A DNA stretch of 64,000 nt from Rahnella inusitata. Lineage in GTDB: Bacteria > Pseudomonadota > Gammaproteobacteria > Enterobacterales > Enterobacteriaceae. The notes beneath the pieces were generated by a model, which saw only the letters and a list, made by a program, of their open reading frames with translations, made no database searches and was not told the DNA's origin. The stretch covers positions 1-64,000 of the forward strand of contig NZ_JYDE01000042.1 in assembly GCF_003263515.1 (NCBI RefSeq), read 5' to 3'. Positions 16,856-45,606 of the stretch are shown piece after piece; position 1 is the first letter of the stretch; each line of letters starts with the position of its first letter. A program made the translations under genes and the position numbers.

Positions 16856-18139
16856 ATGGCTGATAAGAAAGCGACACTTACCCTACAAGGTCACGACCCG
16901 ATTGAACTGGATGTGCTGTCCGGCACGCTGGGCCAGGATGAAATTGATATCCGCACCCTCGGTTCAAAAGGCCTTTTTACCTATGATCCCGGTTTCACGT
17001 CTACTGCATCCTGCGAATCCAAAATCACCTACATTGATGGTGAAGAAGGCATTCTGCTGCACCGCGGTTTCCCGATTGATCAGCTGGCGCAAGAGTCTAA
17101 CTTCCTGGAAGTGAGCTACCTGCTGCTGAACGGCGAAACCCCGACACCGAAGCAATTCGAAGAATTCAAAACCAATGTGACCCGTCACACTATGGTGCAC
17201 GAGCAGATCACCCGTCTGTTCCACGGTTTCCGTCGTGACTCTCACCCGATGGCCGTCCTGTGCGGCGTGACCGGCGCGCTGGCCGCGTTCTATCACGACT
17301 CCATTGACGTCGAAAACGAACGTCACCGCGAAATCGCCGCTTACCGTCTGCTGTCCAAAATGCCGACCGTTGCCGCGATGTGCTACAAATATTCTATCGG
17401 CCAGCCGTTCGTGTATCCGCGCAACGACCTATCCTATGCTGGCAACTTCCTGCACATGATGTTCTCCACCCCGTGTGAAGAATACAAAGTGAACCCGATT
17501 CTGGAACGTGCAATGGACCGAATTTTGATCCTGCACGCCGACCACGAACAAAACGCCTCAACGTCAACAGTGCGTACCGCTGGCTCAAGTGGCGCTAACC
17601 CGTTCGCCTGTATCGCTGCAGGTATCGCCTCACTGTGGGGACCGGCTCACGGCGGTGCCAACGAAGCCGCGTTGAAAATGCTGGAAGAAATCAGCAGCGT
17701 GGATCACATCCCTGAGTTCGTTAAACGCGCAAAAGATAAAAATGATTCGTTCCGCCTGATGGGCTTTGGTCACCGTGTTTATAAAAACTATGACCCGCGC
17801 GCCACCGTAATGCGTGAAACCTGTCATGAAGTGCTTAAAGAGCTGGATCTGAAAGATAACCTGCTGGAAGTGGCGATGGAGCTCGAGAACATCGCGCTGA
17901 ATGATCCGTACTTCATCGAGAAGAAACTGTATCCGAACGTCGATTTCTACTCCGGCATCATCCTGAAAGCGATGGGCATTCCGTCTTCCATGTTTACCGT
18001 TATCTTTGCGATGGCGCGTACCGTGGGCTGGATTGCACACTGGAGCGAAATGCACCAGGACGGCATTAAAATCGCCCGCCCTCGTCAGCTCTACACCGGC
18101 TACGACAAACGTGATTTCCATTCTCAGCTGAAAAAATAA
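16856..18139 (+). CDS. gltA: Citrate synthase
   Basis: 427 residues, the E. coli length; condenses acetyl-CoA and oxaloacetate into citrate. It is the large hexameric, NADH-sensitive type, with the N-terminal extension ([20 protein letters not shown]). Active-site segments are intact: [14 protein letters not shown] and [14 protein letters not shown] with their histidines, and the aspartate in [10 protein letters not shown]. It is followed by a strong terminator at 18165. Confidence 0.98.
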
Positions 18140-18164
18140 TCTCTTCTTTTTTCACTATAATCCA

Positions 18165-18196
18165 AAGCGCCAGCATTTATGCTGGCGCTTTTATTT
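18165..18196 (+). terminator. Intrinsic terminator of gltA
   Basis: 10-bp stem AAGCGCCAGC / GCTGGCGCTT, loop ATTTAT, then TTATTT. It lies 25 bases after gltA; on the minus strand it could also serve the convergent DUF1996 gene, since A residues precede the stem only weakly. Confidence 0.88.
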
Positions 18197-18212: not shown

Positions 18213-19658
18213 TTATTGGTATTGTTGTTCCTGTGCACCGTAGATCGTCAATTGTGAAGGGTAATGTTCATTTTCCCTAGCACTGAACGTATATATATCC
18301 CCTTTTTTCTTCGAGTCACCACTGAGGCAAAATGCGATTTCCGTTTGCCCTTGCTGCTGCGCCTGTTTCACTATACTGGTCACATCAATATCACGATACC
18401 TCTGTGCTTCATCAAGATATAACCCTGCATAGGATTTATAGTTACACACCGGCCTGGTATTCCATGTCACACTCTTTTCGTCCCAGTCAGTTGTCGTCGG
18501 ATAAATATAAATCATCTGCGCGCCGGTTGATGTACTTCTTCCGCCAAAAAGATGCACGTTATATTTAAATAAGGCTAACTGTGAGTCCGGATAGTTAGTA
18601 GGTAGTGCGGGGATTTTAAATTTCAACAATGTGATTTTTTCATCATTACCCGCTTCCGCAGAATTTGAGGTATCACCCTGAACTAACAACTGCTGACTGT
18701 CGCCAAAGTTTTTATCACTCTCCTCTTTATTACTGACATAAGTATCAGCGCTGGTATCAAGATAGGTATATGGCATATAGCTTGTACAATCATAGTTATT
18801 ATTCATGCAGCGTTCTGTCATGAATTTTGCAGCATCAGGTGCCCAGCCATTAATAAAATCACCATGCGCGGTATAGAGTGTCCCCCATTGATCAATACGC
18901 TTTTCCCCTTCCATGATCGGATCCAGAGATAACTGAACCGTTCTCAAATCCAGAGAGGTAGCGCCTGGAAACTGATAGGCAATATTCATGTTAACGGTAG
19001 GAATATGTTTGGGGTAGTCAGCCGGGCAGACGCCGTTATCATCTGAATACACGGCATTCGGTTTGCGGGGGGAGCCTGACGGTTTTGCCGCGATATTCTT
19101 ACCATCCCAGCAGTTGGGAAATTGAATGCCGATATTAAATTGCAGAGTGCTGCCGTCTGCAGGCTGTTTACATGTACGCTGGTCACTTTGGCTGTAACCC
19201 GTACCGTCATTACATAAAAAACTAATACGCGGGTTTTGTGTAGTACCTTTATGGTCACCGGCTAAAAGCTGTAAACCCGCCGGGAACGGTATTAACGGAT
19301 TTGCTTTACTGCCCGCAGTTTGATAATACGTCTTCTGATAGAGTGGTCGCACTTCTGTGCCATCAGGTAATCTTAATGAGGGTGCCCAATAAGCTGAGGA
19401 ATCGGCTAAATCGGTACAGGTTGTGGCAGGTTTATTTTGTAGTGTTTCATATGTTGTGGATGCGTCCGTAGACGTATTACCAAAAAAATCATGCCACATC
19501 GCGTGATTAGGCATACCAAACATTAAAATAGCGTCATCACCTAAAGTGTGGTGATAAGCGCACTGAACGCTGGTCTGATAATCATCAGCCTGCGCCATAA
19601 AGGGTACGATACCTGTACAACAAAGAGAGACAAATAAGCCTGCTTTGTATTTATTCAT
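18213..19658 (-). CDS. Secreted DUF1996 protein with C-terminal DNRLRE (CBM96-like) domain
   Basis: 481 residues from ATG 19658 (GAGG seven bases upstream; a start at 19682 would add eight residues before the signal). Residues 1-26 are a Sec signal peptide (MNKYKAGLFVSLCCTGIVPF...AQA). Residues about 30-300 match DUF1996 by pattern: HAMWHDFFGN, the YWAPSLRLPDGT region, PFPAGLQLLAGD, FPNCWDG, CPADYPKHIP and AHGDFINGW. Residues about 305-480 match the DNRLRE/CBM96 beta-sandwich: DTSADTYVS, LLKFKIPALP, W-x5-VTWNTRPVC, DIDVTSIV and FSARE. About ten cysteines suggest disulfides in the periplasm or outside. DUF1996 is best known from fungi and soil bacteria and has no firm function; polysaccharide binding or cleavage is inference. 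Codon use looks more AT-rich than neighbouring genes, and no homologue sits at this place in E. coli, so gain by transfer is plausible. Confidence 0.82.
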   Translation of the reverse strand: MNKYKAGLFVSLCCTGIVPFMAQADDYQTSVQCAYHHTLGDDAILMFGMPNHAMWHDFFGNTSTDASTTYETLQNKPATTCTDLADSSAYWAPSLRLPDGTEVRPLYQKTYYQTAGSKANPLIPFPAGLQLLAGDHKGTTQNPRISFLCNDGTGYSQSDQRTCKQPADGSTLQFNIGIQFPNCWDGKNIAAKPSGSPRKPNAVYSDDNGVCPADYPKHIPTVNMNIAYQFPGATSLDLRTVQLSLDPIMEGEKRIDQWGTLYTAHGDFINGWAPDAAKFMTERCMNNNYDCTSYMPYTYLDTSADTYVSNKEESDKNFGDSQQLLVQGDTSNSAEAGNDEKITLLKFKIPALPTNYPDSQLALFKYNVHLFGGRSTSTGAQMIYIYPTTTDWDEKSVTWNTRPVCNYKSYAGLYLDEAQRYRDIDVTSIVKQAQQQGQTEIAFCLSGDSKKKGDIYTFSARENEHYPSQLTIYGAQEQQYQ

Positions 19659-19809
19659 GGGAAACCTCGCCAGTAAAATCAATTATTACACCTATTGCAA
19701 ACTTACCTGCAATTTAAAAAGCATATAATAAGCACTGGCGTTAATACGCCTGAAATATGCACACAAATATCATTTCTTATAATTTTTATTAATCATAAAA
19801 ATAACTCAC

Positions 19810-20604
19810 TTACACCTGACACACCGGGCACCAGAAAAATGGCCGCGATGACACGCTGCTTTTGACGATGGGGTCGCCGCAACGCTCGCAGGGTTTGCCC
19901 GTGCGGCCAAAAACCTTAAACCGGAACAACGCGCCGTGATGCACATTTTCATCCATAGTGCCGCGCGTGGCGTAGGATAATCGCGCCACAGACAAACAGG
20001 CATCGGCCAGCGCATCCAGCTCTGTTTCGTTCAACTCTTTCGGCTTGTGTTCCGGCAGCAGTTTCGCCAGCCAGAGAATCTCTGCCCGCAGATAGTTTCC
20101 AAGACCAGCAAGAAACGCCTGATTGAGCAACATACCACCCAGTTGCCGGTTACGGAATTTAGGCGAGAGTAACCGCTCACGTACCTGCGCGACCGTCAGC
20201 GTTTCGTCCAGCACATCCGGGCCGATACGTTGCAGGAACGGATGATTTTCTATTTCCGCCGTATCATAAATCCCGATTTCAGACGCGCTGTACAACAGGA
20301 TCGCCGCATCGGTAGTCTGCAACTGCACCCGCAGCGAACGTTTGGTTTCTTTCGGTGTTTCACCGCCCTTCACTACCCGCCAGACGCCATAAAGTTGATT
20401 GTGGCTGTAAAGCGTCAGGCCGTTGGAGAAGTGGGTCAGCAGTGCTTTACCGCGCGTTTCAATCGCCGTGATTTTCGTACCACGCAGAGCCGACTGGTAA
20501 GGTTTCAATGAGGGGAAAGCAAACCAGACATCCGTGAGCGGTTTATTGACGACCGCGCGCACCAGTAAATCGGCCGCGCGGCGAATTTCAGGACCTTCAG
20601 GCAT
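19810..20604 (-). CDS. nei: Endonuclease VIII (DNA glycosylase/AP lyase)
   Basis: 264 residues (263 in E. coli). The N-terminal PEGPEIRR supplies the catalytic Pro2 and Glu3; the C-terminal zinc finger is CERCGDPI-x-FFWCPVC. It removes oxidised pyrimidines from DNA. Its ATG overlaps the pcp stop (TGATG), making it the last gene of pxpB-pxpC-pxpA-pcp-nei. In E. coli nei likewise follows pxpA. Confidence 0.97.
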
Positions 20605-45078: not shown

Positions 45079-45606
45079 ATGGCCGTAGTAGGAATCTTCT
45101 TTGGATCCGATACAGGTAACACCGAAAACATCGCAAAAATGATCCAGAAACAACTGGGTAAAGATGTTGCTGAGGTGCATGACATTGCGAAGAGCAGCAA
45201 AGAGGATCTGGAAAAATTCGATATCTTGCTGATCGGTATTCCAACCTGGTATTACGGTGAAGCCCAGTGTGACTGGGATGACTTCTTCCCAAGCCTGGAA
45301 GAGATCGACTTCGAAGGTAAGCTGGTTGCGCTGTTTGGCTGTGGCGATCAGGAAGACTATGCAGAATATTTCTGTGACGCACTGGGCACCGTGCGCGACA
45401 TCATTGAGCCACGCGGCGCGGTGATTGTGGGTCACTGGCCAACAGAAGGCTATCATTTCGAAGCCTCTAAAGGTCTGGCCGATGATAAACACTTCATCGG
45501 ACTGGCGATTGACGAAGACCGTCAGCCTGAATTAACCAATGAGCGCGTTGATGCGTGGGTTAAGCAAATTACAGAAGAATTAAGCCTTTCAGAAATTATT
45601 GGCTAA
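45079..45606 (+). CDS. fldA: Flavodoxin 1
   Basis: 175 residues, near-identical to E. coli FldA. The FMN phosphate loop is GSDTGNTE (residues 9-16), and the isoalloxazine contacts lie in PTWYYGEAQCDWDDF and FGCGDQEDYAEYFCDALG. It passes electrons from flavodoxin reductase to radical-SAM and other enzymes; it is essential in E. coli. The fldA-fur pair is conserved. Confidence 0.98.
   Translation: MAVVGIFFGSDTGNTENIAKMIQKQLGKDVAEVHDIAKSSKEDLEKFDILLIGIPTWYYGEAQCDWDDFFPSLEEIDFEGKLVALFGCGDQEDYAEYFCDALGTVRDIIEPRGAVIVGHWPTEGYHFEASKGLADDKHFIGLAIDEDRQPELTNERVDAWVKQITEELSLSEIIG

Follow-up and report, generated by a model that had tools for sequence, protein, structure and literature searches.

Introduction

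DUF1996 proteins have been described from fungi, among them VLP1-3 and Wsc1I of Beauveria bassiana. In the available part of one report, 14 fungal proteins carry DUF1996 as their sole domain and have no signal peptide, the three that were studied are vacuolar, and the published formula of the domain contains HxH (HxHxxxG) and D-X4-P (PMC4738358). The same excerpt states that deletion of three DUF1996 genes in Beauveria raised the sensitivity to cell-wall stress and to several metal ions, with copper sensitivity unchanged (PMC4738358). Wsc1I joins DUF1996 to a WSC domain (PMC9148135), a WSC lectin serves as a beta-glucan probe (PMC9252488), and fungal DUF1996 domains often occur together with CBM1, CBM6 or WSC, from which a link to polysaccharide degradation was suggested (PMC7679414)—each as given in the accessible portions of these papers. 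On the bacterial side, the obtainable text of PMC1360685 lists STM4309, from island 4305 of Salmonella Typhimurium, as a ‘putative periplasmic or exported protein’ that was weakly detected by RT-PCR. Within the partial texts available, our literature search found no study of a bacterial DUF1996 protein, and it returned no paper that treats both DUF1996 and laminarin.

Here we analyse a Rahnella inusitata protein that joins DUF1996 to a carbohydrate-binding module of family 96 (CBM96, also DNRLRE), encoded in a 64,000-nucleotide stretch of contig NZ_JYDE01000042.1 (hereafter, the window). Compared with fungal VLP1-3 and Wsc1I, the window protein keeps the motifs DxSxYWxP, CP and the tail HxDxxxGW, whereas it has Met for the first His of HxH, lacks the proline of D-X4-P, bears Asn for His201 and has gained H136; in addition, it is bacterial, carries CBM96 at its C-terminus in place of WSC or CBM1, and begins with a Sec signal (recognised by eye). 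Its Salmonella counterparts are ~50% identical, one of them (L057) with both domains; the neighbours of STM4309, however, are rtsAB and a DMSO-reductase-like operon rather than gltA and nei. With an actinomycete gene cluster encoding GH55, GH158, DUF1996 and GH3 (see below) the protein has the DUF1996 domain in common; unlike the window protein, the DUF1996 protein of that cluster has His at position 54 (H-type), shows no CBM96 match and is encoded beside beta-1,3-glucanases.

Results

A two-domain protein with an export signal is encoded between gltA and nei

The gene occupies 18213..19658 on the minus strand, from an ATG at 19658 to a stop codon at 18213-18215, and encodes 481 amino acids, as supported by its open reading frame and by Pfam and NCBIfam matches. 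A Shine-Dalgarno-like GAGG (19665..19668, minus strand) lies 6 bases before the ATG, and an alternative, TTG-started form of the gene begins at 19682. As originally predicted, the gene is placed between gltA (16856..18139, plus strand) and nei (19810..20604, minus strand), the left and right borders of what we refer to as the slot. The 151 bp between gene start and nei (19659..19809, minus strand) are AT-rich (GC 29.8%), and a consensus promoter and terminator scan listed no sigma-70-like promoter in this region. On the other side, an inverted repeat whose ends are rich in A and T, respectively (18164..18191, no strand assigned), was found as a self-match and may serve as a terminator common to the converging gltA and DUF1996 genes; it is absent from the listing of the same scan and, by eye, is unlike the repeat of genomes in which the site is empty.

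Both domains were recovered by profile search, far above the curated cut-offs. The DUF1996 domain (PF09362; residues 42-272; 18843..19535, minus strand) matched Pfam at 125.1 bits (cut-off 27; E 6e-36) over model positions 1-237 of 237, and the CBM96 (residues 297-472; 18243..18770, minus strand) matched PF24517 at 138.1 bits (cut-off 26; E 3e-40) and the NCBIfam DNRLRE_dom model at 78.9 bits (cut-off 34), an assignment to which the fold comparison below also points. All segments by which the original prediction had recognised the two domains (HDFFGN, FPNCWDG, HGDFINGW, VTWNTRP, and FSARE) are present in the protein, the third of them being the form in which it carries the HxDxxxGW tail of canonical H-type DUF1996.

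Residues 1-24 (MNKYKAGLFVSLCCTGIVPFMAQA; 19587..19658, minus strand) read by eye as a Sec signal peptide, with a basic start, a hydrophobic core, and AQA-DD. Ten cysteines follow the signal, eight of them within residues 25-295, as would be expected in an oxidising compartment. From these features, we infer Sec export of the protein. Support for the earlier description of the protein as secreted extends as far as the export signal: the pseudopilin family PF08334—the one marker family of type II secretion (T2SS) searched—gave no match in the genome (G000). A link between the gene and T2SS was rejected more generally, as this marker occurs in 9 of 29 carrier genomes and 61 of 266 others (Fisher p 0.36). 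Since the own genome has no match and carriers are not enriched, we take the periplasm as the default location.

The C-terminal half has a CBM96 fold and the DUF1996 half lacks a detected solved relative

The full-length structure model (pLDDT 74.8) matched solved carbohydrate-binding modules in its C-terminal part. In VIA-align, it matched the chondroitinase CBM 8wab_B at Z 19.4 (169 residues, 2.8 Å) and the CBM of the alginate lyase Dp0100 (7vbo) at Z 16.7; structure prediction thus bears out a CBM96 beta-sandwich with the same fold as these two modules. In the available text on 7vbo, six basic groove residues (Lys10, 22, 25, 27, and 31, and Arg36) are needed for alginate binding (PMC9971899). 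Two of these six align with a basic residue in the window protein (K311 for Lys10, a Lys for Arg36), in a weak alignment (E 0.0023) from which the 7vbo numbering offset of 16 was itself inferred. Because the basic groove is mostly not kept, the ligand of the window CBM96 is probably not alginate.

Modelled alone (residues 25-295, 42 sequences), the DUF1996 half reached a pLDDT of 92.1 and a pTM of 0.90. The best Foldseek match in the PDB had an E of 0.014, short of the 0.001 threshold, which by itself does not prove a new fold, and VIA-align placed one of 991 chains at a Z of at least 2 (Z 2.1). BFVD gave no match at E 0.001, and a profile search of PDB sequences returned only an antibody, at E 0.036. 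A copper-monooxygenase reading was considered and rejected: peptidylglycine hydroxylating monooxygenase matched the full-length model weakly and is absent from the best 50 matches of the domain model.

CBM96-fused DUF1996 proteins form a single clade with replaced histidines

In 80 non-redundant DUF1996 domains (reduced from 96, under 95% identity), position 54 is Met in 48 and His in 32, a split by which we define M-type (M in 48/48) and H-type (H in 32/32) proteins. This census is not a random sample, the window protein having led to most of the M-type rows. Left out of it were L001, L030, L052, L060, L065, L066, L086, L087, L090, L091, L093, L125, and all later actinobacterial loci—copies of rows already included, fragments, broken genes, or loci fetched later; L038, L046, L047, L050, and L052, without a full-length match, were dropped from row set A1, and L052, L108, and L122 from row set A3. 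The window protein is M-type: its motif AMWHDFFGN (residues 53-61; 19476..19502, minus strand) reads M54-x-H56, with Met in place of the first His of HxH and the second His kept. H56 and H265 are present in 80/80 domains and D267 in 79/80, the latter two residues forming the H265-x-D267 part of the tail motif (18858..18866, minus strand). Two further positions set the M-type apart: H136 (19251..19253, minus strand), found in 48/48 M-type domains and not among the H-type positions conserved in 90%, and N201 (19056..19058, minus strand), Asn in 47/48 M-type domains where 31/32 H-type domains have His.

A tree built without columns 54, 136, and 201 had one branch that separated 30 M-type from 32 H-type rows, at under 85% identity (SH-aLRT 100). 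That the M-type remains one clade with the three columns removed argues that M54, H136, and N201 trace back to a single historical event rather than to repeated co-change. The fusion follows the same line: CBM96 was found in all 37 M-type proteins scanned, with L058 at 22 bits, below the cut-off of 26, and in none of the 28 H-type proteins scanned (of 32; L082, L111, L121, and L123 were left out). Hence, the proteins fused to CBM96 make up a single clade, marked by the replacement of near-invariant DUF1996 histidines, and this grouping is new.

Acquisition of the gene at an exchangeable slot is well supported

The original prediction placed the gene on an AT-rich stretch, and its composition is indeed deviant. 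Measured on the TTG-started form against 43 window ORFs of at least 150 amino acids (the DUF1996 gene counted among them), its GC is 43.8% versus a mean of 54.4% (sd 3.6) and its GC3 is 41.3% versus 61.6% (sd 6.1), the lowest of the 43. Among the ten ORFs listed, its GC is also the lowest, and its synonymous-codon divergence of 0.229 is raised, though not the highest (0.270 for 335-898). Elsewhere in the window, the ORF at 45079-45603 has the second lowest GC3 (0.51) and is possibly another acquired gene.

The slot itself is variable. Across 14 Rahnella genomes, it holds this gene in three, is an empty gltA-nei gap of 60-63 bp in eight, and contains an autotransporter-like gene in three, which argues that the slot exchanges surface-protein cargo. 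The autotransporter-like gene of G303 (L094:2362-5547; 1061 amino acids)—the one scanned by Pfam—matches an autochaperone and a beta-domain, and those of G302 (L095) and G255 (L096) are 77% and 63% identical to it. With eight of 14 sites empty, uniform ancestral presence was rejected.

A metagenome-assembled genome (MAG) of another genus carries the gene at the same gltA-nei site, bringing the copies compared to four. These are 70-80% identical, whereas nei, gltA, and pxpB of the same genomes are 82-99% identical. For five of the six pairs, the dS of the gene was computable and amounted to 1.5-3.5, within each pair exceeding the values of its neighbours nei, gltA, and pxpB and, wherever available, of pcp (0.47-1.41 over all pairs); as NG86 estimates are near saturation here, only the direction of this difference is trusted. 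The corresponding dN of 0.12-0.20 indicates a protein under constraint, i.e., purifying selection. Fast adaptive change as the source of the 70% identity at a common site was rejected on the same figures, dN/dS being far below 1 and dS above that of the neighbours. Furthermore, the R. ecdela copy groups with that of the other-genus MAG (SH-aLRT 97 in one tree, 99 in another), but by identity its gltA, nei, and pxpB stand closer to R. rivi—a conflict between the tree of the gene and the identities of its neighbours, not between two trees.

Taken together, low GC, empty sites, alternative slot cargo, excess dS, and the conflict of tree and identities render acquisition of the gene well supported, in agreement with the initial suspicion. 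The excess dS, the tree conflict, and the low GC further point to subsequent allele exchange, which probably proceeded through the conserved flanks.

DUF1996-CBM96 genes are patchily distributed and occupy several positions

Matches turned up in 29 of the 295 family genomes sampled (one of them, G108, with only fragments) and in six of 14 of the genus, a patchy spread rather than uniform presence across the order. In wider samples, DUF1996 was found in 9/398 genomes of the phylum and in 38/246 actinobacterial genomes (the phylum of G688). The initial description of DUF1996 as reported mostly from fungi and soil bacteria proved too narrow, as the fused form extends across Enterobacterales and M-type members reach Cupriavidus, while CBM96-less forms occur in viral contigs.

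The R. inusitata genome encodes a paralogue 48% identical to the window protein (L097:8107-9531, G000:C17) in a xylose locus, between a GPH symporter and alpha-xylosidase gene pair and xylR; xylA lies beyond and, by eye, so do sugar ABC transporter genes beyond xylR. This xylR-side position is common to two other Rahnella genomes (G302 and G303) and one of another genus (G169), and broken copies occupy it in G024 and G173; in G302, ORFs that by eye resemble transposases lie between alpha-xylosidase and the copy. A third position, nfuA-malQ, is found in G302, G303, and G173 (L104-L106), with the flanks in G173 identified by models. Each insertion position corresponds to one side of a branch in the gene tree. 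A comparison of 29 loci turned up no neighbour that M-type genes of different genera have in common. In E. coli, a distant blastn search of 5426 genomes, which misses DNA under ~65% identity, gave no match to the Salmonella-type gene.

DUF1996 is also encoded at 18 IMG/VR loci (L107-L124) and in one phage genome (MW202423.1, locus L126), which was submitted as the complete genome of a siphovirus. All non-redundant viral domains belong to the H-type; some of the proteins have long N-terminal extensions, and that of L124 has LysM. In PHROGs, the only match of the window protein was to its CBM region. Four further phage-collection matches (AFYI01000007.1, AGRM01000005.1, OR851644.1, and OR845674.1) look like host DNA filed as phage, the host-like records being 500 kb Salmonella contigs and records of 1.6-1.8 kb.

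One actinomycete DUF1996 subfamily adjoins beta-1,3-glucanase genes

Among seven actinobacterial plasmid loci inspected, two from Streptomyces (L129 and L130) encode ‘discoidin’ proteins beside DUF1996. One such neighbour matches GH158, a beta-1,3-glucanase family (PDB 9oro, E 3e-29); the other is a GH55 protein, at 1036 bits to PDB 4pew. In the available part of its description, PDB 4pew/4tz1 is SacteLam55A, an exo-beta-1,3-glucosidase (PMC10637969). Both families are present beside DUF1996 at these two of the seven plasmid loci, and L130:191-8323 encodes GH55, GH158, DUF1996, and GH3 in this order on one strand.

The glucanase idea arose from these two plasmid loci and was then tested on 20 fetched loci, hand-picked from 14 genomes. 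GH158 adjoins DUF1996 at five of the 20 (L172, L173, L174, L175, and L177), four of which also have GH55, and GH3 joins the cluster at L130 and L173. None of 16 control regions, from ten of the 14 genomes and including two of the five positive ones, contained GH55, GH158, or GH3. The five positive loci encode proteins 57-81% identical to the Streptomyces protein and thus represent one H-type subfamily; the other 15 (24-43% identity, or no match at that cut-off) are without GH55 and GH158, as are five of the seven plasmid loci. At L169, the match was confined to the sugar-binding part of the GH158-like protein; the control L200 matched 116 residues of an arabinofuranosidase query at 37%.

A parallel Pfam tally found F5/8-type C domains in 6/117 neighbour proteins versus at most 1/104 control proteins—at most one, as the family is absent from the first 25 families listed for the controls—and is weak by itself (Fisher p 0.02 with a control count of 0, or 0.08 with 1). 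Its genes came from a purpose-written script, which missed the DUF1996 gene of L179, and 4/108 long control proteins were left out. The claim of a glucanase link is therefore carried by the GH55/GH158 test. The actinomycete GH55-GH158-DUF1996(-GH3) cluster, one member of which has no assigned function, likely serves beta-1,3-glucan degradation. A separate observation concerns a Pseudonocardia plasmid (L131:1111-9943), in which DUF1996 is fused to DUF4142 within a cluster that also encodes cupredoxin, CopC, CopD, and a ferredoxin reductase and may thus be linked to copper.

Discussion

Membership of the window protein in the DUF1996 and CBM96 families is ordinary; the novelty lies in the M-type subfamily, in a domain model that found no match, and in the glucanase neighbourhood of certain relatives. 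With middling confidence, we interpret the gene as single-gene, horizontally exchanged cargo for a two-domain protein that is exported by Sec, probably contains disulfide bonds, and acts on polysaccharide. The C-terminal beta-sandwich would hold a polysaccharide chain and the DUF1996 half would act on it through a putative His/Asp cluster (H37, D42, M54, H56, H136, D185, N201, H265, and D267), with H56, H265, and D267 as the presumptive core and M54, H136, and N201 as the set peculiar to the M-type. That these residues form one site, that the site is catalytic, and what its substrate would be are read from conservation and relatives; likewise, action on polysaccharide is suggested by the CBM96 fold match and, by analogy, by the glucanase-adjacent DUF1996 of one actinomycete subfamily. 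As that subfamily is tied to beta-1,3-glucan breakdown, beta-glucan or a similar plant, fungal, or microbial wall glycan would be the first candidate substrate. The location of the paralogue between an alpha-xylosidase gene and xylR counts in favour of a polysaccharide role. Counting against it are the lack of a catalytic precedent, of a solved fold relative in our searches, of the T2SS marker, and of a neighbour cluster common to the M-type, as do the 14 fungal proteins whose sole domain is DUF1996 and which have no signal peptide (PMC4738358, in its available part). Moreover, with two conserved histidines replaced, the function of the M-type protein may differ from that of its glucanase-linked H-type relatives.

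A bolder form of this interpretation is possible, and we advance it tentatively: DUF1996 may be a new class of enzyme or auxiliary activity on beta-1,3-glucan, with a fold so far unseen among solved structures, within which the M-type of enterobacteria and beta-proteobacteria would have switched ligands (H54/H201 to M54/N201, with a new H136), gained CBM96, altered its chemistry or substrate, and spread as slot cargo.

Alternatively, the protein would be exported as a lectin or adhesion protein without catalysis, its two halves doing no more than bind glycans, and the slot would carry surface-interaction cargo. The replacement of two near-invariant histidines in the M-type speaks for this role. 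CBM96 is a binding module, and, next to the autotransporter-like gene in three of the 14 Rahnella genomes, the slot harbours abrB and a fimbrial protein in the ten E. coli rows listed. However, H56, H265, and D267 are near-universal across several phyla and viral contigs, which is unusual for a pure lectin, and we noticed no anchor; overall, we consider a purely binding role rather unlikely.

The His/Asp-rich conserved set, to which the M-type adds Met, further invites comparison with metal sites. A periplasmic or surface protein for metal or stress handling, as proposed for fungal DUF1996, would be in line with the cell-wall-stress and metal-ion sensitivity of the Beauveria deletions, as far as the available text of PMC4738358 goes, and with the copper-related neighbours of the Pseudonocardia DUF1996. 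The same excerpt reports unchanged copper sensitivity, though (PMC4738358), the fungal cell-wall phenotypes are compatible with a glycan role too, and a glycan role is the better match for the CBM96 fusion and for the glucanase genes beside relatives, making metal handling improbable. Equally doubtful is a weapon-like, e.g., antifungal, factor. Such a role would account for the exchange of alleles of a low-GC single gene, without a constant partner, at one fixed slot and accord with the glucanase neighbours of some relatives, but the slot between gltA and nei holds no gene for immunity or secretion, and no toxin family is among the Pfam and NCBIfam matches.

The conserved GH55/GH158 gene order narrows the earlier suggestion from fungi (PMC7679414, in its available part) to one cheaply testable substrate class. 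This matters for a domain that occurs in fungi, actinobacteria, Proteobacteria, and viral contigs and to which the literature found assigns no activity. With a confident model and no solved relative detected, the DUF1996 domain is a worthwhile target for crystallography, and the natural His-to-Met and His-to-Asn replacements single out the residues of interest. For Rahnella, the gltA-nei slot—empty, or filled with a DUF1996 or an autotransporter gene in sister species—offers a tractable example of cargo exchange.
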